IMG/VR virus record: IMGVR_UViG_3300010885_076238
Span: 1-64,000 of that record
Direction: 5' to 3' (one strand)
Origin: a virus
DNA length: 64,000 bases
Below the pieces are notes generated by a model. The model made no database searches and was not told where the DNA came from. It worked only from the letters and a program-made list of their open reading frames with translations. Of the stretch, positions 2-37,666 are shown one piece after another. The translations under genes were made by a program, and so were the position numbers. The number at the start of each line of letters is the position of its first letter. Within the stretch, counting starts at the first letter, position 1.

Positions 2-1234
2 ACCGAGTCTAGTACAAGTACACCTACTCCAACGTTGACACTGACCAATACTCCAACCGTCACTGAATCTAGTACAAGTACACCTACTCCAACGTTGACA
101 TTGACTCCTACTGTTAATTTCAGTGATGTAGTTGAAATTATCACTACACCTACACCAACGTTAACCGAGTCTAGTACGAGTACACCAACACCAACTAATA
201 CTAATACTCTAACTTTAACAAAAGGTCCTGATTGTGATGTTTTCCTAAGGTTCACACCTACTCCAACACCAACAGAAGCTCCTAATTGTGATGTTTTCTT
301 GAGAGTGACTCCTACAAGCACTTGCACTCCAACTCTAACTCCAACTCTAACTCCTACTTTAACTGCTACTCCAACTTTTACTCCAACCCTTACTCCAACC
401 GATGTGCCTAACATTTTGACAGAACAATCAGAAAAAATATTAACAGAAAATGAAGGCTATATTTTATTAGATTTTCTAATTGGACCAAAACCAACTCGAA
501 CTCTTACTGCCACGCCAACTATTACTCCTACGAGAACTATTACTTCTACAATAACAATAACAAAAACAATAACAAAAACAATGACGCAAACATTGACCTC
601 AACTAGAACAAATACTAGTACTCCTACCCAAACTCAAACTAAAACTTCAACAAGCACTGTCACTTCGACCAGTGCCGCAACCAAAACTCCAACTCCAACT
701 AATACTAACACTCCAACTACAACAAGCACTGTTACTGCTACTAAAACCCCAACTCTAACTTCAACTCTAACTTCAACTAAAACACTAACTCCAACTCCAA
801 ATCCAACCTTAACTTCAACTAATACCTTAACTTCAACTAATACTCCAACTTTAACTTCAACTAAAACACTAACTCCAACTTTAACTAAAACTCCAACTCC
901 AACTCCAACTCCAACACTAACTCCAACTCCAACACTAACTCCAACTCCAACACTAACTCCAACTTTAACTAAAACACTAACTCCAACTTTAACTAAAACA
1001 CCAACTCCAACTTCAACTAAAACACTAACTCCAACTTCAACTAAAACACTAACTCCAACTTTAACTAAAACACTAACTCCAACAACCACGCCTGGACTAA
1101 CATTAACACCAACACCAACAATAATAAATCCTCTCAACTATAGTAGATCAAGTGTAAATAACACTTCTCATACAAATTGGGGTTTGTTAAGATCTATAAT
1201 TTCATCTAATATTAATAATTGGGGGTCTGAATGA
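2..1234 (+). CDS. Thr/Pro-rich mucin-like fibre or stalk protein (5' partial)
   Basis: The frame is open from base 2, so the true start lies left of the window. Almost the whole visible protein is TPT, TLT and STS repeats, like an extended O-glycosylatable stalk. Two short copies of a P-D/N-C-D-V-F-L-R motif interrupt the repeats near residues 66 and 83, and a related PDCDF motif occurs in the product of 5462-6577. A non-repetitive C-terminal tail of about 40 residues is rich in Asn, Ser and Trp. The stop overlaps the next ATG (ATGA), which suggests translational coupling to the subtilase. A structural, virion-surface role is inferred from composition and neighbours; no catalytic domain is visible. 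Confidence 0.7.
   Translation, partial: TESSTSTPTPTLTLTNTPTVTESSTSTPTPTLTLTPTVNFSDVVEIITTPTPTLTESSTSTPTPTNTNTLTLTKGPDCDVFLRFTPTPTPTEAPNCDVFLRVTPTSTCTPTLTPTLTPTLTATPTFTPTLTPTDVPNILTEQSEKILTENEGYILLDFLIGPKPTRTLTATPTITPTRTITSTITITKTITKTMTQTLTSTRTNTSTPTQTQTKTSTSTVTSTSAATKTPTPTNTNTPTTTSTVTATKTPTLTSTLTSTKTLTPTPNPTLTSTNTLTSTNTPTLTSTKTLTPTLTKTPTPTPTPTLTPTPTLTPTPTLTPTLTKTLTPTLTKTPTPTSTKTLTPTSTKTLTPTLTKTLTPTTTPGLTLTPTPTIINPLNYSRSSVNNTSHTNWGLLRSIISSNINNWGSE
690..1090 (+). repeat. Tandem ACTCCA/ACTTTAACT-type coding repeat
   Basis: This stretch is made of short imperfect tandem units such as ACTCCAACT and AAAACACTA that encode the Thr/Pro/Leu repeats. Such arrays easily change length by slippage, so stalk length may vary between isolates. 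It also creates a false open frame on the minus strand. Confidence 0.8.
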
Positions 1235-3810
1235 AAGAAATAGAAAGCATCGATGACATTTTATCTGGACTGAAGCGGATGGACTCCGAACCCGGATCAG
1301 ATCTTAAGAAATTTACAATTGTTTTAAAAAATCAACAAGATAAACAAAATTTTATTGATGATATGCGTTCTCAAACATCTTTGGTTTCAAACATACCAAG
1401 TAGATTATGTAAAGCATTAAATGAAATAGAAAATAGCAGAAGGGTTTTAGAGTATAATTTAACTAAAGAAGAAGCTGAAAATATTAGAAAAGACTCAAGG
1501 GTAGAGTGTGTAGAACAATATATTGAAAAAAAAATAATTAACTTAGGCTTTAGAGATGAGACGATCTTGCCAAAGCCTTTTGATTATGTAGAAACTCCCC
1601 TAGATTCTAAGTTAAAAATTCAGTCCTTCGATCAATCTGCGGTAATATCAGGTTTGCCTGATGGTTCTGATGTTGATGTTGTAGTAGTCGATGGTTTCAT
1701 GGCCCCAGCCAATCCAGAATTCGCAAGCAACCCTGATGGAACTGGTGGTAGTAGAGTTAATCAAATAGATTGGTATGACGTAATAAGTTATACCAATCCT
1801 TCGTATCCTTCTTATCCATATTCTTCATTTATCACAGGAAATAGCAATTCTGATCTCAATAATAATCATGGATCTCATGTTGCAGGAACCATCTCCGGTA
1901 ATACTCAGGGCTGGGCAAAAAAATCAAATATATATAATATAAATCCATATTATTCATTCATGCCAAGCGCAGGAAAAGATCTATATTTATATGCAATTAA
2001 GACTTGGCACGAAAATAAACAAGTAAATAATTTATATGGGAACAAAAATCCAACTATAAGCAATCATAGCTATGGTTATATTTGGCCATATAATATAGAT
2101 ATTAGAAACGTACTATCAATTAAATATAGAGGAGCAACTTTAATTGCTCCAAGAAATTATAATGGAGCACGATTATCTGCTGTTTTAAACGGTTCCGGTG
2201 GGATATCCGTAATAAATGTTATAAATAATGGAACAAACTATACTAACGAGCCGCAGATATCATTTTATGGAGGGGGTCAAGCAACAGCCACTGCTGAGTT
2301 AGCTAGTGGATCTGTTTATGAGATAATTATAACCGATGGTGGTTCGGGCTATAGTTCCTCTAACCCACCAACAGTAACTTTTAGCAGCCCGCCAGCAGGA
2401 GGCACTAGAGCCACTGCAACAATAGTTTCTCGTCGATTAATAGATGATTCTTCTGGCAACCCCTATGTTTATGTGAATGACAATCCAATGTATCAAATTG
2501 GAAGTCCAGGAGTTGGTCAAATTTTTGGAATTGAAATAACAGAAGCTGGTTCTGGATACATTAATCCTCCAACGGTAACTTTTTCTAATCCTGGTCCTGG
2601 GGGAAGAGTTGCGCAAGCAACTGTTGGGCTAGGATCTAACTTTATTAAAAAAATAAATATAACAAATGGAGGAACGGGATACAGCAACAATGATAGTATT
2701 CCTGATGTTATATTAAGTGGAGTAAATTATACTGAAAGTGCAAGAATTGATAAATTTTTGGTAATTCATAATGGAGAACGAAGGTACACAGACTCAAATG
2801 GATCCTTATTAAATGGAATTTATCAACCTGGTATGAGAAGATATCAGAACTTTTTCGGAGGTCCTTTGTATATACGTTACTCTGCTGGAGGCAATTACAG
2901 TTCTAGTCCAACAGTTTCATTCTATGGTGGAAATTCATTTCCTACATTCGGACCGAATGCAGGAACAATTGTAGGAACTAAACCTCATGTTAGAGCGGTA
3001 ATGGGAACTGGATCTAATGCTGGCAAAATAATGTCAATAGATGTTATTAAATCAGGAGAAGGTTATACCTCTCCTCCAAATATAGTAATAACCAACGGGG
3101 GAGGTTTTACAGAGCAGCAACTTTCAAGCTATGGCGTTGTTATATATTATAGCGACTATCTTGAAGATTTAAATAGACCTATTATGTCCGAAATGCCTAT
3201 GAGAGATTCAGGAGTTGATTCTGATATTCAAGATTTGATTGATTCTGGGGTTGTGGTTGTGGTAGCTGCTGGCAACAATTACTACAAAATAGATTTGACT
3301 TCCGGCCAAGACTATGACAATTATATTCAAGTAATTGATACTTATCATAGGAGAGCCGAACCTTCAATACTACCCGCTGAGCTGGAAAGCACAATTGATT
3401 TTTACTACCACAGAGGTTCTTCTCCTGGAAGTTGTCCTGGTGTAATTTGTGTCGGAGCATCCGCAGCGGCATCAACGGAATATAAGACTGATTTTAGTAG
3501 TACTGGACCTAGGGTTGATGTATATGCACCGGGACAACATATAAATTCAAGTACTTATAACGATGGATTAAATGATCCAAGAGATAGCAATTATCGTTTG
3601 GCTAAGTGGTCGGGTACGAGTATGGCAAGTCCTCAGGTAGCAGGAATGATTGCTTGTTATGCACAGAATAATAGAACTATAAATCAACAAGATGCTCGTG
3701 ATTTTATTATAAATAATGCAAAACCAACCGTTCAAAATGGAACTAATTATAAATCTTTACAAGGTGGAACTAATAAGTATGCTTATTTCCCGGGAATTAG
3801 CTATAGATAG
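1231..3810 (+). CDS. Subtilisin-like serine protease (S8) with large beta-repeat insert
   Basis: The S8 triad is readable as Asp154 (VVVVDGF), His213 (HGSHVAGT) and Ser797 (SGTSMASP). Residues about 27-97 look like an I9-type propeptide that ends before the catalytic domain. Between His and Ser lie about 580 residues, far more than in a normal subtilase. They contain at least five related units of the form 'I-x-I-x-x-x-G-S/T-G-Y-x-x-x-P-x-V-x-F', typical of beta-rich phage structural proteins. It lies between fibre-like genes and overlaps the upstream stalk gene by ATGA, so a virion-associated protease that matures fibres or digests host surface protein is likely. The catalytic assignment is firm; the target is inference. 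Confidence 0.9.
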   Translation: MKEIESIDDILSGLKRMDSEPGSDLKKFTIVLKNQQDKQNFIDDMRSQTSLVSNIPSRLCKALNEIENSRRVLEYNLTKEEAENIRKDSRVECVEQYIEKKIINLGFRDETILPKPFDYVETPLDSKLKIQSFDQSAVISGLPDGSDVDVVVVDGFMAPANPEFASNPDGTGGSRVNQIDWYDVISYTNPSYPSYPYSSFITGNSNSDLNNNHGSHVAGTISGNTQGWAKKSNIYNINPYYSFMPSAGKDLYLYAIKTWHENKQVNNLYGNKNPTISNHSYGYIWPYNIDIRNVLSIKYRGATLIAPRNYNGARLSAVLNGSGGISVINVINNGTNYTNEPQISFYGGGQATATAELASGSVYEIIITDGGSGYSSSNPPTVTFSSPPAGGTRATATIVSRRLIDDSSGNPYVYVNDNPMYQIGSPGVGQIFGIEITEAGSGYINPPTVTFSNPGPGGRVAQATVGLGSNFIKKINITNGGTGYSNNDSIPDVILSGVNYTESARIDKFLVIHNGERRYTDSNGSLLNGIYQPGMRRYQNFFGGPLYIRYSAGGNYSSSPTVSFYGGNSFPTFGPNAGTIVGTKPHVRAVMGTGSNAGKIMSIDVIKSGEGYTSPPNIVITNGGGFTEQQLSSYGVVIYYSDYLEDLNRPIMSEMPMRDSGVDSDIQDLIDSGVVVVVAAGNNYYKIDLTSGQDYDNYIQVIDTYHRRAEPSILPAELESTIDFYYHRGSSPGSCPGVICVGASAAASTEYKTDFSSTGPRVDVYAPGQHINSSTYNDGLNDPRDSNYRLAKWSGTSMASPQVAGMIACYAQNNRTINQQDARDFIINNAKPTVQNGTNYKSLQGGTNKYAYFPGISYR

Positions 3811-4112: not shown

Positions 4113-5461
4113 TGTCCGCATCATTTATTCCGGGATTTCCCGAGTCTATCTCCCTTCAACCGCCAGATGTAAAAGTATTTTTTTTAGGTACTAATAGACT
4201 ATCTCATTGTGATTATACTTTGAAATTAAGTGAATCTTGGCCATCTTTCCCCGGCTTTCAAAATTGGGAGCTAGATCAAAATTCGGGAGAATTGACTTTA
4301 AATAATGCCGATTTTGATGAATCTGGATTCGATGTTCATATAGGTAAAAATATAGAGGTGACCATAGGAATATGTTCGGAATCTGGCAAGTGGCATGAGT
4401 GCGGAAATCTTTCAAAAACATACAAAGGAATATATACGATAACAGACATAGGTATGTGGTCAGACAAAATTATCTGCTCTCCAGATCCTGCAAACGATAA
4501 TATTCCTAGTGAATTTTTTAACCTTGGATCTGGCGAAGTCCAATATATGGAAAGTTTTTGGAATGCCTATCAATATTGTCCTATTCAAGAAAACTATTAT
4601 ACAAATGAAGTTTTAAAATTTGGAATTCAGGTTATAGGTGCAGGATCAGCCCTAGGATATAAGGTTATAGGAACCCCTAAATTAGCGATTTCTTTTTCAG
4701 GTCAAAATGGAAATATAACAAGATACGCAGAATTCAAAGAGGAGTTCAGCTCATATTCTGATTCTTCGAGAGAGGCCTATTTTGAATTTCATTATGCCAT
4801 ACAAGGCGTGGACAATGGAATTCCTAGGATTGGCGACAAAGCCACCCCTTGGTCGTCTGATGCTCTCAATTCAATTCGATGGAGCGCCCCCGATAATAAT
4901 TATTATTCTAGTTTCACCTCATATTTGCCCGTTACGGATATGACCAGAGTTAGGGTGAATATGGATGGAGAGCCATCTGGAAGAAATAGCGGTCAAGTCA
5001 CAATATTATTGAAAAGAAGTGATGTTCCAGGTAAAGCACCTAGTTCTTCAGATATTTTATTGGGAGAGCCTGCTTTAAACACAAGTGACGGCAAGCTATT
5101 TATTAAAAAAGAAGACGGCTCAGTAATATCTATAACTCCGATTGAGCCTCAAATTTTTACTACAAAAAATATAGATATAACATCAAGTCAAAATGATTTA
5201 AACTTAGAATCTAGTGCTACTGTTAGATTGAATCCAACCGTTGAAAGTGCCAATATAAGTGGATTTGCAGCAGGAACACCAGGAGAAATTAAATTATTAT
5301 TTAATGCTGGGACTCAAAGTTTAAATATACTTCATAATTCAAGTGACAGCATAGAAGGCAACAGAGTATTAATATCTGGCAATGATAATTTTTCTTTGGA
5401 TGTAAATTCAGGAGTTACTATTTTATATGATGAAGCTAGTAATGCTTGGAGATTATTTTAA
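4112..5461 (+). CDS. Putative tail fibre / virion surface protein
   Basis: The 449-residue protein has no enzyme motif that I recognise. Its last 80 residues follow a pattern frequent at the C-termini of phage fibre proteins, with NI-x-I-x-x-x-x-x-DS-x-x-x-NR-x-L-x-SG, 'GVTILYDEASNAWRLF' at the end and beta-strand spacing throughout. The N-terminal 150 residues are rich in Trp, Asp and Cys. It abuts the next gene with no gap (TAA then ATG) and follows a fibre-like leader, so a receptor-binding or fibre role is the best inference. Confidence 0.65.
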   Translation: MSASFIPGFPESISLQPPDVKVFFLGTNRLSHCDYTLKLSESWPSFPGFQNWELDQNSGELTLNNADFDESGFDVHIGKNIEVTIGICSESGKWHECGNLSKTYKGIYTITDIGMWSDKIICSPDPANDNIPSEFFNLGSGEVQYMESFWNAYQYCPIQENYYTNEVLKFGIQVIGAGSALGYKVIGTPKLAISFSGQNGNITRYAEFKEEFSSYSDSSREAYFEFHYAIQGVDNGIPRIGDKATPWSSDALNSIRWSAPDNNYYSSFTSYLPVTDMTRVRVNMDGEPSGRNSGQVTILLKRSDVPGKAPSSSDILLGEPALNTSDGKLFIKKEDGSVISITPIEPQIFTTKNIDITSSQNDLNLESSATVRLNPTVESANISGFAAGTPGEIKLLFNAGTQSLNILHNSSDSIEGNRVLISGNDNFSLDVNSGVTILYDEASNAWRLF

Positions 5462-6577
5462 ATGTGGATTATTAGAAATAAAAGATTGGTTTTTACTCCT
5501 ACTCCTACTCCTACCGTAGCGCCTGACTGTGATTTTTCTTTAATTGAAGTTCCTGACTGTGATTTTTCTTTTATATTTACACCTACCCCTACACTATATG
5601 GGCCTTATGGACCTACAAGCACCCCCACTCCTACAAAATACGGAGCTGTTTATTCTCGTTTTGGTCTTGAATCTTTAGAATATAATTCATTAGGCAATTT
5701 CAATATCAATGAAAAATACAAATCTCCAAATAAAAGAGACATGGCTGTTTGTTTAGCTTTCTTTTCTCCAGTAGGATCAAAAAATCTATTATTAAATTAT
5801 AATAGAGTTAAAAATAAATTAGATAAAGCTAAAATTCCCAACTACACAATAGAATTAACTTATAACAATAAAAAATTAATAAAAGATCCATTTGTAAGGT
5901 TAAACACAAGTTCCATAATGTTTCATAAAGAAAATCTATGGAATATTTTGGCAAATAAGATATCGAAAAGATATAAAAAATTATTGTTCTTGGATGCAGA
6001 CATAATGTTTACAAATCCAAATTGGTACAATGATTTATCTATAGCGCTAGATTTTAATGATATAGTTCAGCCTTTCGAGTCTGCAGTATGGCAAAATTCA
6101 AAAGGCAAATTTAATTCTACTAATCCTTGTTCTGCTCAATTTATAGGATTAAATAAAAAATTAAACTTTTCAATGTGTCATCCTGGATTCGCTTGGGCAA
6201 TGACAAGAAATACATTTGATAAAATTAATGGATTTTACGAATATCAAGTTCTTGGCGCTGGCGATGCGCTATTTGCAATGGCATTAAATAAAAATGAATT
6301 TCTACCTGGAAATTATGGGTACCACTATTCTTTAGCAAGTTATTATCAACAATATGTAGATAAAATAAAAAAATATAGTCTTAAGATAAATTATTTAAAT
6401 AATTGCAATGCACTTCACTTATATCACGGATTATTAGAAAATAGAAATTATGGAGGAAAAGAAATTCCTAAAAATCTTGAATTCATAAGGACAAAAGATG
6501 GATTATTAGAATGGAAAAACCAAGAGAATAATCAAATAATGATTAGAAATTTCTCTAGTAGAAAAGAAGATTTCTAA
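5462..6577 (+). CDS. Glycosyltransferase fused to Thr/Pro fibre repeats
   Basis: Residues 11-60 contain PTPTPT repeats and two PDCDFS motifs, the same style as the stalk protein at the left edge. From about residue 90 a GT-A-type domain follows, with the DxD metal/sugar-nucleotide motif at 178-180 (FLDAD), a G-x-x-W-A-M block and a late H-L-Y-H-G segment. The related gene at 21437-22288 has the same block order. The fusion links a virion-type repeat to an enzyme, which suggests the transferase is targeted to, or modifies, the Thr/Pro stalk. The donor sugar cannot be read from sequence. Confidence 0.8.
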   Translation: MWIIRNKRLVFTPTPTPTVAPDCDFSLIEVPDCDFSFIFTPTPTLYGPYGPTSTPTPTKYGAVYSRFGLESLEYNSLGNFNINEKYKSPNKRDMAVCLAFFSPVGSKNLLLNYNRVKNKLDKAKIPNYTIELTYNNKKLIKDPFVRLNTSSIMFHKENLWNILANKISKRYKKLLFLDADIMFTNPNWYNDLSIALDFNDIVQPFESAVWQNSKGKFNSTNPCSAQFIGLNKKLNFSMCHPGFAWAMTRNTFDKINGFYEYQVLGAGDALFAMALNKNEFLPGNYGYHYSLASYYQQYVDKIKKYSLKINYLNNCNALHLYHGLLENRNYGGKEIPKNLEFIRTKDGLLEWKNQENNQIMIRNFSSRKEDF

Positions 6578-6584
6578 AGTTATA

Positions 6585-6613
6585 TTGTTTTGTTTTTTGA
6601 ATTAGATTATATT
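6585..6613 (+). promoter_or_regulatory. Possible sigma70-type promoter
   Basis: TTGTTT and TATATT are separated by 17 bases, ahead of the 6639 gene. The region is A+T-rich, so chance matches are possible. Confidence 0.4.
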
Positions 6614-6638
6614 CTGCCTGTCAATTCGAGAGGAACAT

Positions 6639-6932
6639 ATGAAAAGAAAAACAAACAGTATGAATAAGAATACAAATATTTTAGTTAAATTTTATCCAGC
6701 CACAGATAAAGAAATCAATAGATTACTAAAATCTTTGAGTATTATGGGCACCAAAGTTTCTAATTTGATTCCAAGATGGGCAATAGATGTGCCTTTTTGG
6801 AAGGAAAATTATTATGTTGAAAAACTTATGAGTAGCGAGCTTGTGGAAAAAGTTTATAGAAATCCCAATAGTAAAAAATTCAATAGAGAAGTTGAAAATT
6901 CACCTAATGGGGAGATAGTAGATGAACAATAA
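6639..6932 (+). CDS. Small protein, possibly a stand-alone protease propeptide/inhibitor (I9-like)
   Basis: The 97-residue product has a good AGAGGA site. Its order ILVKFY - helix - RWAIDVP - YYVEKLMSSELVEKVYRN recalls the beta-alpha-beta I9 fold of subtilisin propeptides, including the closing 'selVekV' strand. It does not resemble the 1231 subtilase propeptide closely enough to claim homology by eye. If right, it could inhibit or chaperone the nearby subtilase; otherwise it is an uncharacterised protein. Confidence 0.45.
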   Translation: MKRKTNSMNKNTNILVKFYPATDKEINRLLKSLSIMGTKVSNLIPRWAIDVPFWKENYYVEKLMSSELVEKVYRNPNSKKFNREVENSPNGEIVDEQ

Positions 6933-7152
6933 ACTAGTTGAATTTAGAAAAATTTTAGCTGAACAAGGTAAGGAATTAACCCTAGATCAGGCGAAAGTTC
7001 TTTATATTTCTGCTGAAAAGTTGCTAAAAAGATCAAAGAAACTCTCTCAGATAGATCTATGGAACATGCAGGATGAAAAGATTGAAGGAATGACAGAGAA
7101 AGAAAAGCAAGAAGCCATAGCCTTATATCAGTACATTAGAGATCTTGTATGA
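6922..7152 (+). CDS. Hypothetical helical protein
   Basis: The 76-residue product is charged and probably all-helical, with no family recognised. It starts after GGGGAG, overlaps the upstream gene by 11 bases and the downstream mutase gene by ATGA, so the three are likely one transcription and translation unit. Confidence 0.6.
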   Translation: MNNKLVEFRKILAEQGKELTLDQAKVLYISAEKLLKRSKKLSQIDLWNMQDEKIEGMTEKEKQEAIALYQYIRDLV

Positions 7153-8240
7153 ATTTTGATTTTCTAATTGTTGGAGCCGGTCTTTTTGGTTCCACCTTTG
7201 CTAGAACAGTAGCGGAAAAAGGAAAAACTGTTTTAATTGTTGAAATAAGAAACCATATAGGTGGTAATTGTTATTCCGAAAAAATAGAAGGAATAAATGT
7301 TCACAAATATGGTCCGCATATATTTCATACTAATGACTTAAGAATTTGGAATTTTATCAATAGATTTTCTAAATTCAATAGTTATCAGCATAGACAAAAA
7401 GTTAATTATAAAAATAAAATTTATTCATTTCCCATAAATTTGATGACTTTATATCAGATTTGGGGAGTAACCTCACCAGAAGAAGCAAAGGCAAAGATTG
7501 ATTCTATCAAGGTTCCCAATATAGAATCTGATAATCTAGAAGATTGGGTTTTGTCTCAAGTTGGCGAAGAATTATATGAAATTTTTGTCAAAGGATATAC
7601 AACCAAGCAATGGGGAAAAAGCCCTAAAAGTTTGCCAAATTTTATAATTAAAAGATTGCCAATAAGACTCACGTACGACGACAGATATTTCAATGATGAA
7701 TATCAAGGAGTTCCAGTTGACGGCTATACTGGCATTTTTGAAAATATGCTTGACCATCCCAATATAAAAATTCAAACAAATGTTGATTTTTTCAGCAATA
7801 AAAGCGAACTACTGAATCAAGCAGAAAAAATTATTTTTACAGGGAAGATAGATGAATTTTATGAATATAAATTTGGGGAGTTAGAATATAGATCTTTAAG
7901 ATTTGAAAATAAAATATTAGATGGTGATCATCAGGGTGTTGCAATTATGAATTACACTGAAAAAGAAATCCCATTTACTAGAATTGTTGAACACAAGCAT
8001 TTTGAATTTAATAATTCCAATAAAACTGTTGTTACTTGGGAATATCCTGATAACTATTCTATAGGAAAAATACCTTATTACCCAATCAATGACGAAAAAA
8101 ATAATAATTTATATAAAAAATATGAAGGTCTTAATGAAAGTGGAAAAATTATTTTTGGTGGCAGACTAGGTAAATATGAGTACCGGGATATGCATCAAAT
8201 AATAGCTTCTGCACTTGTTTGTGCGAAAAAAAATATATGA
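7149..8240 (+). CDS. glf: UDP-galactopyranose mutase
   Basis: This flavoenzyme interconverts UDP-galactopyranose and UDP-galactofuranose, the donor for Galf-containing glycans. The FAD-binding Rossmann motif VGAGLFGS is at residues 8-15, followed by the family blocks GGNCY, HKYGPHIFHT and YTTKQWG. At 363 residues it is of normal length. It is flanked by ATGA overlaps on both sides. It supplies an activated sugar for the many glycosyltransferases in the window and acts in the cytoplasm. Confidence 0.95.
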   Translation: MNFDFLIVGAGLFGSTFARTVAEKGKTVLIVEIRNHIGGNCYSEKIEGINVHKYGPHIFHTNDLRIWNFINRFSKFNSYQHRQKVNYKNKIYSFPINLMTLYQIWGVTSPEEAKAKIDSIKVPNIESDNLEDWVLSQVGEELYEIFVKGYTTKQWGKSPKSLPNFIIKRLPIRLTYDDRYFNDEYQGVPVDGYTGIFENMLDHPNIKIQTNVDFFSNKSELLNQAEKIIFTGKIDEFYEYKFGELEYRSLRFENKILDGDHQGVAIMNYTEKEIPFTRIVEHKHFEFNNSNKTVVTWEYPDNYSIGKIPYYPINDEKNNNLYKKYEGLNESGKIIFGGRLGKYEYRDMHQIIASALVCAKKNI

Positions 8241-8950
8241 TAACATCAACAAAAGTTTTAGTATTAAATAAAAATTGGACAGCAATAGGCATAACTTCTT
8301 TACAAAGAAGCATGTCTTTGTTGTATTCCGAATATGAGAATGGCGAGCCTAAAGCTCACATTGTAACTCCTCCACCGAAAGGTAGCTATGAGGTTTGGAG
8401 TTGGAAAGACTGGTCTGAACTTTTTCCGTCCGAAGGAGAAAATGGGATAGTCTCAGCAAAAAGAGTTTATAAAGTGCCTGAGGTTATACTTCTTAGTAGA
8501 TATGAAGAAGTTCCATCTACAAGAGTCAATTTTTGTAGAAGAGCCATATGGAAAAGAGATGAGTTTAGATGCCAATATTGTGGAGTCAGACCAAATTATG
8601 ATGAAGCTACGTTAGACCATATTATTCCTAGATCTTGTGGCGGAGAAACAAGTTGGACAAATTGTGTTTTAGCCTGTTATCGATGCAATAGTCAAAAAGC
8701 AGATAGGGAACCACATCAGGCTTTTAGACCCAAAGATAAAGAAAAAGCCAAGTTTTGGAGAGGTCCTTCTCCAATGAAGTTGTTGAAAGAACCAAATAGA
8801 CCTGAGTTTTCAATATTTAGGGGCGAGTATAGAATTAAAGTTTTGGATACTTGGAAGCACTGGATTGATAAATTATATTGGGATATAACTTTAGATAATG
8901 ATATGGAAGAAGAAGATTTGGACATTGCAAAATTAGCATACGAAAACTAA
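8237..8950 (+). CDS. HNH endonuclease
   Basis: I chose the ATG that overlaps the mutase stop (ATGA). An HNH fold is clear: zinc pairs C112/C115 and C147/C150, the catalytic DH at 127-128 (LDHIIPRS) and an Asn at 142. The N-terminus (VLVLNKNWTAIG) matches a widespread bacterial and phage HNH family. It could be a homing-type or DNA-processing nuclease. No intron or split gene is visible next to it, so homing is not shown. Its 3' end overlaps the convergent gene by 18 bases. Confidence 0.88.
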   Translation: MITSTKVLVLNKNWTAIGITSLQRSMSLLYSEYENGEPKAHIVTPPPKGSYEVWSWKDWSELFPSEGENGIVSAKRVYKVPEVILLSRYEEVPSTRVNFCRRAIWKRDEFRCQYCGVRPNYDEATLDHIIPRSCGGETSWTNCVLACYRCNSQKADREPHQAFRPKDKEKAKFWRGPSPMKLLKEPNRPEFSIFRGEYRIKVLDTWKHWIDKLYWDITLDNDMEEEDLDIAKLAYEN

Positions 8951-10387
8951 TTGTTTTTTGTCGTCATAGCAATCAAAGCCAGATTTTGCATAGGGTATTT
9001 GAATTACTTTTAGATGATCTTGATTTGAAAAATACAACATAGCAACCCTTTCATAAAGAAAGGCTGCTTTTCTTTTGTCTTGACCGAAATCTACCTTATA
9101 GTCAAAATTGTATCCATATTTGCTATTTATATAATGAAAAATATCTCTAAATTTATAAATAAAATCAGCAAAAACAAATTTATGGCATATAAAGTTATTC
9201 GCCCAAAAAACATGCTTCCTTCTTATGGGTAGATTAAAAACCTCAGAAATCTCTCTAATATATTTTTCTATTCCTGGATGGTAATTTATAGAATAGTCAA
9301 ACCATTCTTTTCTTGCAAAATGACATGTAAATACACATCTTTCGTCTAGCTTGTCAACCATTTGTGGTAGTTTTTTGATATCTAAATTATATTTTTGTTT
9401 GTATCTATGAGTCATAACCCCAACGTATGATTCTTTGCAACGAAAAACATAATCTGTTAGATAAAATTTATTTTCTGCTATATCTTCTGTGTTTGGTATT
9501 GATAATTCTAATTTGCCTAAATCTAGCTTTTGTATAAAAGGTTCATTTTCCACCTTTTTAAGGGATTCTTCATTGTGCCCAAGAACAAAAACTTTTAATG
9601 AATTTTTTATATTTTTATTGCTTATGTCTTTTTTGAACCAAAAGTAAGGCTTAGGACACCCGCCCAGATGAACTATTGTGCTTTTTCTTTTCTTAAGTTC
9701 TTCATACAATAAATTTGGACTTTCTAACCTTAGATTAGGATTATATAAAGCATCATTGAATTCTCTTTCACAAAGAATAACATTAGAATTTTTACTTGCT
9801 TCTAATGCCCAATGAATTACTCCTTGATCCCACCACTTTATCAGATCTCTTAAGTGTTGTGATTTTGCAGCCTCCTTCGTTAAAAATAAATATTTTTTCA
9901 AAAAGTCAATATCTTTTTTTCTAGTTTTGCATATTCCAAGAACTCCTCCGTTTGGAGGATTTTTTAGACGCTCTTCAACAGGATAAATTTCATATAATTC
10001 TTTTTTATTGTTTATCTCTGCTCCAAAGAAATCTTTTATCGAAACTATATTTTTTTTCAATACTTCAAATAATTTATTTAATTTTTTATAAACAATTGTG
10101 TCTGAGTCTAACCACAAGGTATATTCGAATGGTGATCTAAAAATATAATCCGGTTTATTCCAGGTTTGCCACATGAATAGGCTTTTGGGAATTATTGGGT
10201 TTTCATATTTTATTAAATTAATTTTATTTTTTTTGCACCAATTAATTTCTTTTGATTCTAGTCCTATGTCAAAAACCAACAATGGAATGTTTGGATTTGT
10301 TTTTCTTAAGCTATGACTGAATAGTTGAAAAGCAGAAAAACAGATAGAATCTGTTGAAGTAACTATACCTTGGCTAACTTTTTTCAT
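8933..10387 (-). CDS. GT-A glycosyltransferase (GT8-like) with extra C-terminal domain
   Basis: The first 280 residues look like a GT8-type transferase, with LWLDSD (D94/D96), a 'PPNGGVLGI' block and a late HLGGCPKPYFW segment. About 200 further residues (YKQKYNL, HFARKEWFDYSINYHPGIEKY) form a second domain with no assignment. The ribosome-binding site is weak. It stands alone on the minus strand and ends in the HNH gene. The acceptor is unknown. Confidence 0.75.
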   Translation of the reverse strand: MKKVSQGIVTSTDSICFSAFQLFSHSLRKTNPNIPLLVFDIGLESKEINWCKKNKINLIKYENPIIPKSLFMWQTWNKPDYIFRSPFEYTLWLDSDTIVYKKLNKLFEVLKKNIVSIKDFFGAEINNKKELYEIYPVEERLKNPPNGGVLGICKTRKKDIDFLKKYLFLTKEAAKSQHLRDLIKWWDQGVIHWALEASKNSNVILCEREFNDALYNPNLRLESPNLLYEELKKRKSTIVHLGGCPKPYFWFKKDISNKNIKNSLKVFVLGHNEESLKKVENEPFIQKLDLGKLELSIPNTEDIAENKFYLTDYVFRCKESYVGVMTHRYKQKYNLDIKKLPQMVDKLDERCVFTCHFARKEWFDYSINYHPGIEKYIREISEVFNLPIRRKHVFWANNFICHKFVFADFIYKFRDIFHYINSKYGYNFDYKVDFGQDKRKAAFLYERVAMLYFSNQDHLKVIQIPYAKSGFDCYDDKKQLVFVC

Positions 10388-10426
10388 ATAACTTTTACCG
10401 AAGTTTGACTGTTATAATATAGTTTT

Positions 10427-11188
10427 TCAATTGTGTTTTCTTTTGTAAAATTTTACATGAATATCGATCCAGGCCTTATATCTGGATATTCTTGTGTGTC
10501 CGCTTTCATCTCCAAATTTTGAATTTGGCCTTCCATTAGAGCTGGAAACAAATGAATTAATTCCAGCTAATTTTCCATCAATAAATAAGCCACCTCCACT
10601 ATCCCCATGGGCAATTAGAAATTCCAAAGAAGTTGGGTTATTTTTACTCATATCACAAAACAAAATTGAATCTGTAACAAGCATTATCTTATTACTTCCT
10701 GCTCTTTTTTTATCATCACTTTTATGACTTCCGCTTTGTCCTGTTCCGGTCAAACCGTACCCAGCGATTCCGCAAATCTTATTATGTTCATCTTCTTTTT
10801 CATAGAGAATTGGGTAAAAATCCATCTCAATTTTTTCTTCAACATAGCATAATGCTAAATCTCCTGAACTCATCGTTTTGTTTTCGTCAAAATCTGGGTT
10901 TACTATCACCTCTTTTATTGTGTATTTTTTTTCTTTTATTATAAAATAAGGCTCTTCCATGCAATTGAGGACGTGTGCAGCAGATAAAATCCAATGCTCA
11001 GAAATTACAACGCCAGAACCAGAAGCAATGACTTTTTCATTCTTGAGCCGTCCTGATACTTTAACGACACATTTATATTTTTCTCCATATTGTATATAAT
11101 TTGAGTCAGGAACATCTGGCCTTATTGTTCCGCCATATAAATTACTACCAAATAATAAAGAAAAAATTAAAATTGTATTTTTAATCAT
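10427..11188 (-). CDS. Secreted trypsin-like serine protease (S1)
   Basis: A short signal peptide (residues about 1-20) precedes a chymotrypsin-fold domain. The triad is His72 (SAAH), Asp110 (GDLAL) and Ser197 (GDSGGG). The start follows AAAGGAG. At 253 residues the length is usual. Such exported S1 proteases are uncommon in phages. It may act in the periplasm or outside the cell, perhaps against host or competing surface proteins. Acquisition from a bacterial host is possible. Confidence 0.9.
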   Translation of the reverse strand: MIKNTILIFSLLFGSNLYGGTIRPDVPDSNYIQYGEKYKCVVKVSGRLKNEKVIASGSGVVISEHWILSAAHVLNCMEEPYFIIKEKKYTIKEVIVNPDFDENKTMSSGDLALCYVEEKIEMDFYPILYEKEDEHNKICGIAGYGLTGTGQSGSHKSDDKKRAGSNKIMLVTDSILFCDMSKNNPTSLEFLIAHGDSGGGLFIDGKLAGINSFVSSSNGRPNSKFGDESGHTRISRYKAWIDIHVKFYKRKHN

Positions 11189-11293: not shown

Positions 11294-11565
11294 AAAATAA
11301 AAGCGATCTTCCATTTGAAGAATTAAAAAAAGACAATGTTTTTATTCGCAAGTTTTCTGAAAATATCGACTCTCAGGAATTACATTGGCACAAAGATAGA
11401 GAAGATAGAATTGTCACCCCATTAAAAGAAACAGATTGGCTATTTCAAAGAGACAACCAACTCCCAGAGCCAATTATCGAAGGATTAAAAATAAAAGCAG
11501 GCGAATGGCATAGGGTTATAAAAGGAACTGGGGATTTAGAAATAAAGGTTAATAAATGTTATTGA
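11290..11565 (+). CDS. Small cupin-like conserved protein
   Basis: The 91-residue product carries ELHWHKDREDR near residue 35 and GEWHRVIKGTGDLEIKV at the end, a His pattern reminiscent of a single cupin barrel. It could bind a metal, but key residues cannot be assigned confidently. It is coupled to the mini-gene upstream (ATGA) and overlaps the next glycosyltransferase gene by 10 bases. Confidence 0.6.
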   Translation: MKNKSDLPFEELKKDNVFIRKFSENIDSQELHWHKDREDRIVTPLKETDWLFQRDNQLPEPIIEGLKIKAGEWHRVIKGTGDLEIKVNKCY

Positions 11566-12404
11566 CTTTATTTGTTCTTGCTTTTGGCAAGCCAAAACCT
11601 TTTCACTCTGTTATAATCAAAAATTGGAAAAAAATCCCAGATGTTAAGTTTGTATTAATTACAAATTATAGTGAATGTTGGCAAGAATTAGTGCAAGATC
11701 AGAAGCAATTTAAAATTGTTCAAATATCAATTGAATCTTTTTTTTCTTATTTTTTTAAATTTTTAGATTGTGATAATTTTAATAATTTTAGTGAAAAGTA
11801 TGGCAGTTTGTTTGATATTAAACGACATCCAATAAGTGGTTGGCTTGCTTGTACTTTAAGGCCTTGTCTATGTAGATTTATAAAGCCAGAAACTCTTTGG
11901 TGGGGATGGATCGACTGGGATGTTTTTATAGATAAAAAGAGTATTTCAGAATCACTAAATAGTAGTTCTTTTGATGCTTTTTACTTTCCAAAACAAGGTT
12001 GCCAATGGGAGCAATTCAAGGTTTTTAGATCTAATCTTCCGATAGACGAAATTTATCTAAAGACTCTTAATGAAAATCATTCAAAAAATATTTATTTGGG
12101 TCAACCCTTAGATGTTCATGTTATTTATAAAATTAGAAGTGAAGGTTTGTTTTCTCTTGATGATTCTTCTATAGAAGAATTTGCTGTTCATTGGGAATAT
12201 ACAAATAAACATAATTTGCCACATGTTCAAAAAAACGTACTACTAGACAGTAGTTATTGTAATTTATTAGATGAGAACAATACTTGTATTAAGTTTTTTA
12301 TGGCAGACATTCAAGGTAAAAAATATGGTCAAAATGAAGTGGATTTAATATTTGATAAAATTAATAATGATGGTTATTTTATTTTTAATTATAATAAAGA
12401 TTAA
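11556..12404 (+). CDS. Putative GT-A glycosyltransferase (DUF6625-like)
   Basis: The product begins with a Rossmann-like strand and carries WGWIDWDVF with D120/D122 in the place of a DxD motif, following a HPISGWLACTLRP segment. That order resembles family DUF6625 transferases. It lies immediately upstream of the TnpB-like remnant and starts inside the 3' end of the cupin-like gene. Substrate unknown. Confidence 0.65.
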   Translation: MLLTLFVLAFGKPKPFHSVIIKNWKKIPDVKFVLITNYSECWQELVQDQKQFKIVQISIESFFSYFFKFLDCDNFNNFSEKYGSLFDIKRHPISGWLACTLRPCLCRFIKPETLWWGWIDWDVFIDKKSISESLNSSSFDAFYFPKQGCQWEQFKVFRSNLPIDEIYLKTLNENHSKNIYLGQPLDVHVIYKIRSEGLFSLDDSSIEEFAVHWEYTNKHNLPHVQKNVLLDSSYCNLLDENNTCIKFFMADIQGKKYGQNEVDLIFDKINNDGYFIFNYNKD

Positions 12405-12532
12405 ATAACCTCCCATTTTAGAATTGCTTCTGGATCACTCAATCAAGCCAAAAGAACCGTAGGAACGTCGGGAATGGACCTGTGAAGACCTGAGAGCAAC
12501 AGAGGCTGAATCAGGAAGCCCAATCCCTTTAA
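12405..12532 (+). pseudogene. Decayed 3' end of a TnpB (IS200/IS605-type) gene
   Basis: Right after the glycosyltransferase stop, the same frame reads ...NQAKRTVGTSGMDL-stop, like the 'TVGTTG' motif close to the TnpB C-terminus. In another frame the next bases read TCEDLRATEAESGSP, and in the third RLNQEAQSL-stop, both like alternative TnpB tails. The pieces fit one TnpB C-terminus broken by frameshifts. No transposase or upstream TnpB domain remains. The identification is by eye from short motifs. Confidence 0.5.
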
Positions 12533-12549
12533 GGGCTTTGTAGTTCGTT
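12440..12549 (+). ncRNA. Candidate omega-RNA-like right end of an IS605/TnpB element
   Basis: In TnpB elements the gene's 3' end and transposon right end form the guide-RNA scaffold. Here GGAAGCCC at 12514-12521 begins a hairpin (AAGCCC with GGGCTT, 12516-12537) followed by GTAGTTC, resembling such right ends. If functional, the guide would be the bases just after about 12549. Whether it is transcribed is unknown. Confidence 0.35.
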
Positions 12550-12559
12550 TCTGATCGGA

Positions 12560-13330
12560 TTAAGGGTAGTATTCATTGGTGTTATAAGTAATCAAATTAT
12601 TATTAATTAAATGTTCAATTATATTATGATAGTCGTTTTCTATTCCAATATTTTTAATGACTTGATTAAAAAATGGCACCCTATCCTCAGAATGTCCAGA
12701 GCCAATATGTCTTAAAAATTGTGAAGGATATTCTTCAAACATCCAATCATCAATAACTGAAATCTTATTAATAAAATTGTTTAGATTGATGTACAACGAA
12801 TTTTGTTCCCAATTATGTAATAAATTATTTCTCGGATTATCGGTTTCAAACCATGTTTTAAACATCTCCCTACTACTAGAGTTGTTTTTAAATATATAAA
12901 AACCCGAGCAAGGCAATACCGAACTCCAGGGTTTGTCATTTAAGAATATTAGAGTAGCTTCATCAATTGAAACGCCATTGACTACTTTGGAATTTGCCAG
13001 ATAATTAGAAATACTTAAATTAATATCATAAAATATGCAATCACTATCGATATAGACTACATAATCATATTGGGGGTATTCATCAATAATTTTAATTGAT
13101 GATAATAATTTAGACCAGGCACAATATCTTAATTCATTTTTGGAAGAAAAACAATTATTGATAGGGTATTCATTTTCTAATCCAGGTCTTAAGTATAAAA
13201 AATCATAATTCATTTTTTTTGAATATGAATAATTTATTGCCGCGACCAAAGAATTATAATTTGAATTATTTAATATATTTGATAATCCCCTATTATCTGA
13301 CATTGAAATTAATATTTTTTTACTATTCAT
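12560..13330 (-). CDS. GT34-like glycosyltransferase
   Basis: The pattern YCAWSKLLSS - YDYVVYIDSDCIF (D95/D97) - CSGFYIFKN - WEQNSL matches galactosyl/mannosyltransferases of the GMA12/MNN10 (GT34) type. At 256 residues only the catalytic core is present, without a membrane anchor. A GGGGA sequence precedes the ATG. Its 3' end borders the TnpB-like remnant, so that insertion lies between two convergent transferase genes. Confidence 0.8.
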   Translation of the reverse strand: MNSKKILISMSDNRGLSNILNNSNYNSLVAAINYSYSKKMNYDFLYLRPGLENEYPINNCFSSKNELRYCAWSKLLSSIKIIDEYPQYDYVVYIDSDCIFYDINLSISNYLANSKVVNGVSIDEATLIFLNDKPWSSVLPCSGFYIFKNNSSSREMFKTWFETDNPRNNLLHNWEQNSLYINLNNFINKISVIDDWMFEEYPSQFLRHIGSGHSEDRVPFFNQVIKNIGIENDYHNIIEHLINNNLITYNTNEYYP

Positions 13331-13418
13331 TTTTCCCCACTTTTTACATATTTATATGTATTTGTGTGAATTTATTAATATAAAATCTTTTATAGGCTTG
13401 CCATAACTATATAACCAT

Positions 13419-13973
13419 GTGAAAGTTTACACTCCAAATAAAATAGATAATCCCAAGGTTATCCAAGCAATTTCTGCTTGGGGAGATATTCCCAATATTC
13501 TTCTAGACATAATTGAAAGATTCAACATTTCAAGAAGAAAATGCTTAGAATTTGGCGTTGAATTTGGCTATTCCACATCTGCATTGGCGAATTATTTTGA
13601 TCAAGTTTTAGGAGTAGACACTTTTGAGGGAGATGCTCATAGCGGACACAAAACAGATCATTTTGAAACAACTAAAAATAATCTGTTAGAATTCAAAAAT
13701 ATTAAACTAATTAAATCTCCGTATCAAGAATTTATTAAAAATAATAATGATTTTTATGATTTTGTACACATAGACATTGTGCACAACTATTTGGAAACTT
13801 TTGAGTGCGGAGATTGGTCTATAAATCATTCAAATTGTGTAATTTTTCATGATACGGAATCTTTTCCTGAAGTTAAAAAAGCCGTAGAAGACTTACAAAT
13901 CAAGTATAATTTAGAAGCTTTTAATTATGAAAATTCACATGGATTAGGAATTTTAGTTGGAAAATCTATATAA
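13419..13973 (+). CDS. Class I SAM-dependent methyltransferase (Methyltransf_24-like)
   Basis: CLEFGVEFGYST is the SAM-binding glycine-rich loop, VLGVDTFEG the acidic second strand and YDFVHIDIVHNY the fourth strand. The 184-residue size fits a minimal methyltransferase related to macrocin-O-methyltransferase or cephalosporin hydroxylase folds. It starts at GTG, because the nearby ATG is followed at once by a stop. In this context a sugar O-methylase is likely. Confidence 0.75.
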   Translation: MKVYTPNKIDNPKVIQAISAWGDIPNILLDIIERFNISRRKCLEFGVEFGYSTSALANYFDQVLGVDTFEGDAHSGHKTDHFETTKNNLLEFKNIKLIKSPYQEFIKNNNDFYDFVHIDIVHNYLETFECGDWSINHSNCVIFHDTESFPEVKKAVEDLQIKYNLEAFNYENSHGLGILVGKSI

Positions 13974-13991
13974 AATTATAAGAGGTGTTTT

Positions 13992-14591
13992 ATGAAATTT
14001 AAAGATTTTATTAATAAGAAAGAATCGTCCATGCATTTGGCCTCAGAAGTCATTGTTAGTAAAAATTTACAGTATCATATAGACAATAAAATTCCTCTTT
14101 CTGAAAATATTTTTCGTATTTATAGCAAAGCTTATTTTGATTTGATTAATGAAGCAAGAGATTTGTACGATAGAGATTTGCTTGAAGTTACCGACGAAGA
14201 CGCAGAATTATTAGAAACTGATCTTGGCAAGACGGCAGAATACAATGGAAAATTAGTTCATTTAGACGCTCCGAGACCAATAAAAGAAAAGCTAAATGAA
14301 GCTGACGTTGGTGGCAAAAAGGTAAAATTAAATAAGCCAATGAGAACTCCAGGTGGACCTAAGAAATTTAAGGTCTACGTAAAATCCGGAGACAGGGTAA
14401 AGTTGGTAAGATTTGGTGATTCTAAAAAATCAGGTCTTTCAATTAAAAATAATAATCCAAAAAGAGCAAAAAGCTTTAGAGCTAGACACAAATGCTCAGA
14501 GAAAAAAGACAGAACCACTCCTGGTTACTGGTCTTGTAATGTTTCGCGTTATGCAAAATCTTTAGGACTTAAAAGTGATCGTCCTTGGTAA
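13992..14591 (+). CDS. Prohead/virion-type protein with DUF5872-like C-terminus
   Basis: The N-terminal 100 residues are acidic and helical. The C-terminal 80 contain TPGGPKKFKVYVKSGDRVKLVRFGD, a basic linker, then FRARHKCSEKKDRTTPGYWSC. That is the conserved domain found in many T4-like and marine phage head or core proteins. Start follows AGAGGTG. It has no glycan role and is an island of virion function between glycosyltransferase genes. Confidence 0.7.
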   Translation: MKFKDFINKKESSMHLASEVIVSKNLQYHIDNKIPLSENIFRIYSKAYFDLINEARDLYDRDLLEVTDEDAELLETDLGKTAEYNGKLVHLDAPRPIKEKLNEADVGGKKVKLNKPMRTPGGPKKFKVYVKSGDRVKLVRFGDSKKSGLSIKNNNPKRAKSFRARHKCSEKKDRTTPGYWSCNVSRYAKSLGLKSDRPW

Positions 14592-14600
14592 ATCTTCTCC

Positions 14601-14629
14601 TTGCGTCTTCTTCTTTGTTCTGCTATAAT
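14601..14629 (+). promoter_or_regulatory. Sigma70-type promoter
   Basis: TTGCGT and TATAAT are separated by 17 bases, and TGC just before the -10 adds an extended -10. It sits 35 bases upstream of the 14665 gene. Confidence 0.75.
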
Positions 14630-14664
14630 TTTGAAGACTGAAGACCAATTCCAAGGAGAAATTA

Positions 14665-14847
14665 ATGTCTTTTAAAGAAAATATTCAAAAGCAATACGTC
14701 TATAAAAAAGACAATGAAAAATGGTCTTTTTATGATGAAAATAATAGACCAATTGGAATTGAATATCTAACAATAGAGAATGCCGTAGATGCCCTTTATC
14801 AGTATTTGGAATTGACTTCTACAAAAGAAGTTGGCCTTTCAAAATAA
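14665..14847 (+). CDS. Hypothetical 60-aa protein
   Basis: It has a strong AAGGAG site and its own promoter. The product has a small alternating beta pattern (WSFYDENNRPIGIEYLTIENAVDALYQYL) but no recognised family. Together with the DUF6899-like gene 10 bases downstream it forms a short operon. Confidence 0.7.
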   Translation: MSFKENIQKQYVYKKDNEKWSFYDENNRPIGIEYLTIENAVDALYQYLELTSTKEVGLSK

Positions 14848-14857
14848 GGATGTAAAT

Positions 14858-15211
14858 ATGCCATATATCAAACAAGATAGAAGAAAAGTCTTAAATGACT
14901 CTGTAAGTAAAATGGTTCTATCAATTAGAACCAATACATCAGAGAGTCCATTCACAAAAGAAGAAATTACAAACGAAGAATTTCTTTCTATTTGTGGCGA
15001 TATAAATTATTGTTTTTCTAGAGTTGTTTCTAAATTGATGCAAAATCCAAGTTATTCAAAAATAGCTATTATAACTGGCGTTCTGGAGAACATTAAACAA
15101 GAGTTTTATCGAAGAGTCGCAGAACCTTATGAAGATCTTAAAATAGAAGAAAATGAGGATATTTTAGAGTATTACGAAATTAATTCTTCTATAAGGGTGA
15201 AACCCAACTAA
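14858..15211 (+). CDS. DUF6899-like conserved phage protein
   Basis: I chose the ATG after TAAGGATG because the protein then begins MPYIKQDRRKVL, the usual start of this family, and it carries the family signature EFYRRVAEPYEDLKIEENED. The function of the family is not known to me. Alternative in-frame starts upstream would overlap the preceding gene. Confidence 0.75.
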   Translation: MPYIKQDRRKVLNDSVSKMVLSIRTNTSESPFTKEEITNEEFLSICGDINYCFSRVVSKLMQNPSYSKIAIITGVLENIKQEFYRRVAEPYEDLKIEENEDILEYYEINSSIRVKPN

Positions 15212-15217
15212 TTGCAT

Positions 15218-16462
15218 ATGTACGACCTAATTCTTTGTGTCCTTGCAACTACTAAAAACAATAGATTATCTATTTTTTCAAAAATAGGTTACAAAAAATC
15301 TAATAAATATAAGACAAAAATAATATATCTCGTTGATTCAGATGACAGACCAGATTTTATTGAAGGCGATTGGATTAATTATGGCCGTTTTTATTCAACT
15401 AGATTTCTTAAGTATTTAGAAGAAACTAAAGATGAATCAAGATGGTTTATGCAGGTCGATGACGACTCATGTACAGACCTAGATAATACAATTGATTTGC
15501 TTGATCATTCTTATGACTACAAAGACCCGGTGGTTGTTACTGGGTCTTTTTGTTATGTTTTAGATGTTCCAAGATATGTTGATCAAACTCAAAGTTCAAG
15601 GCCTTGTTTTTCTAACAACATAGATTCTAAGATGCAGCAAGTTTTAAAAGAAATGAAAATTGAAAACTTGTTTTTGGAAACTGATGATTTAAATCAATAT
15701 GAAACAATGCCATATGTTTGTAGAGGTTGGGAGCAAAGTGTCTTTTCATTAAAAGCATTAGATAGAATTAAGAACTACAATAGATTACAAGAATATGTTT
15801 CTAAGTGTGTTGAAATCAAACCTGATTTCGGTGATCAAGTTCCTTTTGTTTTGGCCAAAATAGCTAAAATTCCAATTTCTCAATGTTTCTTTCTTAGTCC
15901 CGCTCCTTCTGCGAGCGAATACACAGCAATCAATAAAAACGGTAGGTTTTCTCATATACATCATGTTTGTGAATCTTGGGATCAACTAGATTATTTTAAA
16001 GATATAATTGAAAATAATATTATTTTTAATTCTTCTGAGGATGTTGATAAATTCTTAGATAAAAAAATAGAAAATACAGAATGGTTTTTCTTTCACATCA
16101 TAAACAATAAGTTGCAATCAAGGTGCGTACTAAAACTCCTTGATCATGCCAAAATAAAGATTGTAAATATTAATATAGATTGTTTAGTTTCTTATTGTGC
16201 TGTTCCTGAGTTCGATCTAAGTTTTAATTATGAACAATATAATTTTGAAGATAAAGATTGGAATTTTAATTTAGAAGATGATTGTTTTGAAATTTCTAAT
16301 ACTTTTAATCAAAAACTTATTTTTAATAAAATCAAATATAAGTTATATGGGTCCAAAGTCAGTGAAAATGAGTTTTATTTATTGTCTAAAATCAATCCAA
16401 TAGATTCTGTTTATTGGCGACAAAAAAAGTTTTTAGATACAAATTTTACGAGAATTGAATGA
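15218..16462 (+). CDS. GT-A glycosyltransferase (GT31/fringe-like) with C-terminal extension
   Basis: WFMQVDDDSCTD places a DDD motif at 81-83, and VCRGWEQSVFSL and DFGDQVPF follow as in beta-galactosyl or fringe-type enzymes. Residues about 270-414 are a Phe/Asn-rich extension with no assignment. The ATG at 15218 is preferred over a TTG two codons earlier. The stop overlaps the helicase start (ATGA), an odd coupling of a sugar enzyme and a replication enzyme. Confidence 0.7.
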   Translation: MYDLILCVLATTKNNRLSIFSKIGYKKSNKYKTKIIYLVDSDDRPDFIEGDWINYGRFYSTRFLKYLEETKDESRWFMQVDDDSCTDLDNTIDLLDHSYDYKDPVVVTGSFCYVLDVPRYVDQTQSSRPCFSNNIDSKMQQVLKEMKIENLFLETDDLNQYETMPYVCRGWEQSVFSLKALDRIKNYNRLQEYVSKCVEIKPDFGDQVPFVLAKIAKIPISQCFFLSPAPSASEYTAINKNGRFSHIHHVCESWDQLDYFKDIIENNIIFNSSEDVDKFLDKKIENTEWFFFHIINNKLQSRCVLKLLDHAKIKIVNINIDCLVSYCAVPEFDLSFNYEQYNFEDKDWNFNLEDDCFEISNTFNQKLIFNKIKYKLYGSKVSENEFYLLSKINPIDSVYWRQKKFLDTNFTRIE

Positions 16463-37542: not shown

Positions 37543-37547
37543 ATAAG

Positions 37548-37666
37548 GTAGCGGAATCAAATACATTGGGCCATTAACTCAGCTGGTTAGAGTGTCAAAC
37601 TCATAATTTGAAAGTCCTTGGTTCGAATCCAAGATGGCCCACTTCAGTCACTTTTGATTCCTCTAC
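37548..37666 (+). other. Inverted repeat flanking the tRNA
   Basis: GTAGcGGAATCAAA at 37548-37561 pairs with TTTGATTCCtCTAC at 37653-37666, 13 of 14 bases. It would close a stem around the whole tRNA precursor, like RNase III-type processing stems. Confidence 0.6.
37568..37641 (+). tRNA. tRNA with anticodon CAU, probably tRNA-Ile2
   Basis: It is a full cloverleaf: acceptor GGGCCAT/ATGGCCC, D-stem ACTC/GAGT, anticodon stem TCAAA/TTTGA with loop CTCATAA, T-stem CTTGG/CCAAG and discriminator A. CCA is not encoded. Pairs C4-G69 and C5-G68 are those reported to favour TilS over tRNA-Met, and tilS is adjacent. Elongator tRNA-Met remains the alternative. Confidence 0.92.

Follow-up and report, generated by a model that had tools for sequence, protein, structure and literature searches.

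Exchange of a predicted glycosyltransferase module linked to Thr/Pro fibre stalks among uncultured phages

Why should an open reading frame (ORF) for a predicted glycosyltransferase (GT) begin like the stalk of a phage fibre? The question is raised by P0001, a TPT-tailed GT of 371 aa with an ATG start, encoded at positions 5462-6577 (plus strand) of the window, i.e., the first 64,000 nucleotides of the 204,311-bp IMG/VR virus record IMGVR_UViG_3300010885_076238. Its N-terminus reads MWIIRNKRLVFTPTPTPTVAPDCDFSLIEVPDCDFSFIFTPTPT, and the N-terminal tail (residues 1-84; 5462-5713, plus strand) carries, within residues 12-58, a TPTPTPT run, two PDCDF units (5522-5536 and 5552-5566, plus strand) and two more TPTPT runs. 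At the left edge of the window lies P0002 (2-1234, plus strand), a Thr/Pro stalk whose 5' end is cut by the record start and of which 410 aa are seen, with 158 Thr, 56 Pro and 49 TP steps. P0002 contains KGPDCDVFLRFTPTPTPTEAPNCDVFLRVTPTST, and has PDCDV before TPTPTPT (227-241, plus strand) and PNCDV before TPTST (281-295, plus strand). The stalk-like start of the enzyme, as claimed by the original prediction, is thereby confirmed, both proteins combining TPT with P[DN]CD[FV]. The further claim that PDCDF itself is present in both holds for P0001, where it occurs twice, but not in its exact form for the stalk, whose copies are PDCDV and PNCDV; the common motif is therefore P[DN]CD[FV] and not strictly PDCDF. 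This likeness goes beyond chance, since P[DN]CD[FV] occurs five times versus 0.06 in shuffles (107,039 residues of ORFs taken from all six frames of the whole record), with P0001 and P0002 accounting for four of the five copies, each near TPT, and since TPTPT runs are confined to three ORFs of the record (2-1234, 5462-6577 and, on the minus strand, 174425-176434).

A scan for CD-x5-TPTPT returned at least 80 loci, and many among the matches listed have the motif inside long TPT stalks. The motif is widespread in stalk proteins of uncultured phages and is therefore a general stalk element, not private to P0001 and P0002; its presence in many unrelated phage stalks makes it less likely that PDCDF is a docking code reserved for these two proteins. 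The third TPTPT-bearing ORF of the record (174425-176434, minus strand), which lies outside the window, has a C-terminus that by eye resembles formylglycine-generating-enzyme/sulfatase-modifying domains, and would be a second enzyme-like domain attached to TPT linkers in the same phage. At the far end of the record, a terminal ORF of tandem repeats (AGGLLSKGAGMAKGLAGKA; 203400-204311) is unfinished at the record end, and no end repeat linking it to the record start was found.

Beyond the tail, residues 85-370 (5714-6571, plus strand) are confidently predicted to be a GT-A glycosyltransferase. In AlphaFold2 models made with nine sequences, residues 1-81 have pLDDT values below 50, as for a disordered tail, and a core running from residue 85 to about 360-365 has values of mostly 80-98. 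A GT-A fold is the prediction of AlphaFold2, Foldseek and VIA-align alike, which bears out the original assignment of the enzyme part to the GTs. The aligned family has two invariant motifs, a DxD (D178-A-D180; 5993-6001, plus strand) and an HxxHG with H319 and H322 (6416-6430, plus strand), the latter followed by a conserved R-x-Y; in the nine-sequence alignment the invariant positions are D178-x-D180, H319, H322-G323, R328 and Y330. On solved structures, the top Foldseek matches are GT7 beta-1,4-galactosyltransferases (best E 7e-8), with the GT27 polypeptide GalNAc-transferases close behind. With VIA-align, many GT-A enzymes score Z 12.6-14.4, too close to rank, and GalNAc-T structures are among them; the family of P0001 is therefore not nameable from its fold. 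A sequence search of solved structures returned nothing relevant, and no Pfam profile, those of GT7 (Glyco_transf_7C, PF02709) and GT2 (PF00535) included, matched P0001 even with E values of up to 1 allowed. The likeness to GT7 B4GalT1 and B4GalT7 and to GT27 consists of the GT-A fold and a DxD-type motif, at 10-16% identity. GT27 enzymes glycosylate Thr/Ser-Pro-rich mucins.

Among the closest predicted viral folds are GTs of giant viruses, from Yasminevirus (A0A5K0U7Q5, Foldseek E 6.6e-21) and Bodo saltans virus (A0A2H4UTM2, 2.8e-12); unlike P0001, these come from viruses of eukaryotes, and their identity to it is 21% and 14%, respectively. Scans of bacterial and archaeal genomes, which reach only sequences matching the short peptide patterns used, returned no cellular relative. 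The sole isolate-phage relative found is gp205 of Xanthomonas phage XaC1 (WNA15848.1; 25.6% identity over 55% of the query), a stand-alone hypothetical gene with neither a TPT tail nor an adjoining annotated fibre gene. The window also encodes a divergent relative of this domain that stands alone, devoid of a TPT tail (21437-22288, minus strand).

The genomic context of P0001 is that of a tail-fibre/baseplate-type locus. Its gene comes last in a one-strand, operon-like run composed of the stalk, a subtilase, a short ORF, the fibre-like P0003 and the GT. The subtilase (1231-3810, plus strand; PF00082, 8e-23), whose start overlaps the end of the stalk gene by four bases, bears a fibre-like insert with matches to PHROGs of tail and baseplate proteins, and has homologues in Synechococcus phages, the S-CREM1 copy lying between baseplate genes. 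The baseplate/fibre-PHROG stretch, of roughly 300 residues, interrupts the catalytic domain of the protease. P0003 (4112-5461, plus strand) matches a tail fibre PHROG (phrog_17885, 5e-8) over residues 297-346, and 27% of its length matches a tail fibre of S-SKS1. At the TAA-ATG junction between P0003 and the GT (5459-5464, plus strand), the two genes share one frame with a single stop codon between them, and a good ribosome-binding site (TTGGAG) precedes the ATG from which the TPT tail is read in frame.

Related GT domains are found fused to a tail fibre in other phages. Two mutually related IMG/VR contigs, L003 and L004, each from a different metagenome, have a fibre ORF that ends in a GT domain 78% identical to residues 85-370 of P0001. 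The complete fibre-GT protein of L004 (1594 aa; 6095-10879) opens with an Mtd_N domain (PF18454, 2.6e-10) together with a weak match to a YadA head, continues with two Thr/Pro stalks, as read directly from the sequence, and ends with the GT; its N-terminal 61 residues match proteins of isolate phages that carry tail fibre or minor tail annotations. When the last 585 residues were modelled, the GT core was again confident, and the segment ahead of it gave no confident domain (pLDDT mostly below 50). BLASTP found no homology between P0003 and the N-terminus of this fibre, and a Pfam search found neither Mtd_N nor any other fibre attachment or N-terminal domain in P0001. The GT gene is thus tied to a virion structural gene both by the fibre operon in this phage and by the fusions in its relatives. 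As to the earlier suggestion that the enzyme is recruited to, or built into, the virion, the link with fibres stands, given its place at the operon end, its fused relatives and its neighbours, but its presence in the particle is something that we infer, as are its activity, donor and acceptor.

Comparison of the record with L003 and L004 further indicates that this domain moves as a unit. An 867-bp nucleotide block, 83.8% identical in L004 and 83.4% in L003, spans 5713-6571 and corresponds exactly to the GT domain, starting sharply at residue 85 and excluding the flanks. The other nucleotide matches are two and short (27 and 65 bp), and at E 1e-6 none of the remaining L003 and L004 proteins matches the record. 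A T4-type portal profile matches the L004 contig and has no match in this record; the T4-type capsid profile matched none of the records tested and is hence uninformative. Divergence of the GT domain amounts to a dS of 0.56 and a dN of 0.14, i.e., a dN/dS of about 0.26, and therefore points to a fairly recent transfer and to purifying selection on the domain. Both here and in the L004-type phage, the module is preceded by TPT sequence in the same ORF. As a separate observation, the T4-type portal ORF of these contigs (L004 13266-15782, 838 aa; L003 6133-8643, 836 aa) seems by eye to contain an intein/Hint-like interruption (CIAGETRIATLFEG...VMHNC).

Fibre linkage takes other forms in the wider family. 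In a third lineage, represented by L005, the GT gene overlaps an upstream fibre gene, and a second fibre gene lies 52 bp downstream. In L006 and L017, a GT gene with the same domain comes immediately after the gene for a short, fibre-like TPT-stalk protein, and in L016 another GT gene sits between the TPT-stalk gene and the GT gene carrying the domain. Together with the exact GT block in the fibres of unrelated phages, L005 and these stalk-following GTs make it a well-supported conclusion that the GT is a horizontally exchanged, fibre-linked module. In a tree of 61 domains, the GTs of P0001, L003, L004 and L005 group together (support 100/97), and L006, L016, L017 and L254 fall outside this clade; the linkage to fibres or stalks has therefore arisen more than once, with at least three changes. 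Most of the 58 loci recovered by a broader profile are stand-alone GTs with no TPT or recognised fibre gene within 4 kb, as judged by a crude motif search for fibre genes, and no fibre gene was found near L266, which is 32% identical to L005. Fibre linkage is therefore a mark of certain clades and not of the whole family. In L254, a structural-like protein (11410-15383) has many terminal SPTPDV repeats, and its end overlaps the start of another GT-like ORF (14691-15383).

A more general coupling, whereby Thr/Pro stalks travel with GTs as a rule, received no support. GT2 (PF00535) genes were present in 18 of the 37 records with TPT stalks versus 5 of 37 random virus records (16 versus 7 per Mb), in a small test of one GT family whose controls, random IMG/VR records, are unmatched for habitat or lineage. 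This excess is not significant once records are length-matched (p 0.2-0.7), and within the stalk records the distance from GT2 genes to stalks is no shorter than under circular shifts (p 0.80), so that the rule was rejected. The GT family of P0001 was found in none of the 37 TPT-stalk records, which were picked by motif, and the two GT2 matches of the present record lie away from P0001. A GT beside low-complexity stalk genes is thus seen in L006, L016, L017 and the clade of P0001, but not for GT2 in the 37 records.

Several other glycan genes are present in the window. A UDP-galactopyranose mutase gene (7149-8240, plus strand; PF03275 GLF, 5.6e-80) begins 0.6 kb downstream of the GT gene, and this proximity alone suggests that its product could possibly supply a UDP-galactofuranose donor. 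The oxygenase and the GT90 enzyme of the original prediction were both verified, as a 2OG-Fe(II) oxygenase (27582-28292, plus strand; PF13640, 1.1e-11) and a GT90-family glycosyltransferase (41225-42238, minus strand; PF05686, 3.1e-20), located 21 kb and 35 kb from the GT gene, respectively. Prolyl hydroxylation by the oxygenase is a family-level guess, PF13640 spanning many substrates. A conserved pairing of 2OG-oxygenase and sulfotransferase with L004 was also considered and rejected, the proteins being without detectable homology. Further glycan genes include epimerases, a sulfotransferase, GT34-like and O-FucT-like genes, a GDP-mannose dehydratase and a carbamoyltransferase. The latter (22298-23764), near 2OG oxygenase, PhyH and methyltransferase genes, resembles a cyanophage cluster (PMC7824862). 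Inside this glycan island lies a gene for a leucine-rich-repeat protein (29416-30288; PF13855, 2e-19). In another part of the window (36904-37642), a gene for a PP-loop ATPase (PF01171, TilS-like) precedes by 25 bp a tRNA that has the anticodon CAU and is called as tRNA-Met, but may be a tRNA-Ile2 accompanied by its own lysidine synthetase.

What, then, might the enzyme do? The reading that we tentatively favour, at somewhat less than an even chance, is that P0001 is a GT of the tail-fibre apparatus acting on the Thr/Pro stalk. The enzyme would be produced from the fibre operon late in infection, and its disordered TPT/P[DN]CD[FV] tail would hold it at the stalk, whether by docking there, by assembling together with the stalk or by itself accepting the sugar; in L004, the covalent fusion would do so. 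Inside the infected cell, a sugar would be moved from a nucleotide-sugar, possibly UDP-galactose or UDP-galactofuranose, onto Thr residues of the TPT stalk, and the outcome would be a stiff, mucin-like fibre resistant to protease. On the evolutionary side, the module would repeatedly land at the 3' end of, or right behind, fibre or Thr/Pro-stalk coding sequences. Stalk glycosylation fits because of the Thr-rich fusion, the adjoining stalk genes and the retained catalytic motifs, features that partly suit a glycan-binding fibre tip as well. Counting against it are the outcome of the GT2 comparison, the lack of matches to this GT family in the 37 stalk records, the predominance of stand-alone members that have no TPT tail, and the many other glycan genes of the record, which could serve another product. 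A bolder form, possible but doubtful, is a self-modifying fibre, where an exchangeable GT fused to, or riding on, the stalk would sugar-coat that same fibre and travel on the virion, each fibre thus bringing an enzyme of its own.

No nucleotide-sugar is expected outside the cell, and this favours a rather unlikely alternative in which the GT fold serves as a receptor-binding tip, binding host-surface glycans that were formerly its acceptor and being swapped like host-range modules. Such a tip would agree with the C-terminal position of the GT on an L004 fibre whose N-terminus is Mtd_N, and with the exchange of this domain alone between unrelated phages. However, the DxD, the HxxHG and a G-x-G-D loop are retained as in stand-alone relatives, the dN/dS value points the same way, and in the present phage the GT is a separate ORF lacking a recognised fibre-attachment domain. 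It is unlikely, too, that the target is the envelope or capsule of the host, altered for superinfection exclusion or surface diversification, with the TPT tail as a flexible linker that plays no part in target choice: the large glycan island of the window and the interpretation of similar jumbo-cyanophage clusters as outer-polysaccharide modification (PMC7824862) speak for such a role, but the location of the GT gene in a fibre operon and the 78%-identical relatives lying physically within a fibre speak against it.

Two further explanations concern the origin of the tail and not the activity of the enzyme. The ORF could be a relic of module exchange, in which a GT-bearing fibre 3' end recombined in and was split by a stop codon, leaving the tail as a leftover and the GT with its earlier target. 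The single TAA between P0003 and P0001 in a shared frame, the sharp start of the homology block and the commonness of TPT repeats among phage fibres are all compatible with this scenario, which we nonetheless hold to be improbable: the ATG of P0001 has a proper ribosome-binding site, same-frame adjacency is expected in 1 in 3 cases and the end of P0003 reads like a complete fibre domain. As for an artefact, one might suspect that a fibre repeat and a GT gene were wrongly put together during assembly, TPT being repetitive and the stalk being at the end of the record, where assembly stopped. An assembly or cloning fusion is nevertheless unlikely, because independent fibre-GT fusions are present on two contigs from other, mutually different metagenomes and because the TPT tail belongs to a single open frame with a ribosome-binding site; as the codons of the PDCDF units and TPT runs of P0001 also differ from those of the stalk, we give an assembly chimera hardly any weight.

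Low-complexity Ser/Thr stalks with GTs encoded alongside are familiar from the glycosylation loci of serine-rich-repeat adhesins (e.g., PMC7948813), which are made intracellularly. Those systems, however, are bacterial and rely on accessory Sec export, and their enzymes are not known to be fused to the stalk. Phage GTs have been interpreted as DNA- or surface-modifying (PMC7326821, PMC7824862), and in mycobacteriophages, phage-encoded GTs were reported to glycosylate virion proteins (Freeman et al., 2023, as cited in PMC12619734). There, the glycans are reported to sit on the C-termini of capsid and tail-tube subunits; the GTs are separate, and the account in PMC12619734 describes no Thr/Pro stalk or fibre fusion, whereas here the GT domain is fused to the fibre or tailed like it and the glycans are hypothetical. 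The literature searched, whose coverage leaves out most subscription papers, yielded no description of a phage tail fibre that carries a GT domain.

Virion glycosylation is known in few phage systems, and the pairing of enzyme and protein is usually unclear. A GT covalently joined to a fibre would link enzyme with substrate, making the question directly testable. Uncultured phages commonly carry Thr/Pro stalks. That otherwise unrelated phages have exchanged precisely the GT domain suggests that tips with a glycosylating (or glycan-binding) role change hands in much the way that receptor-binding domains do; overall, these data suggest that phages swap such GTs to sugar-coat or arm their fibres.
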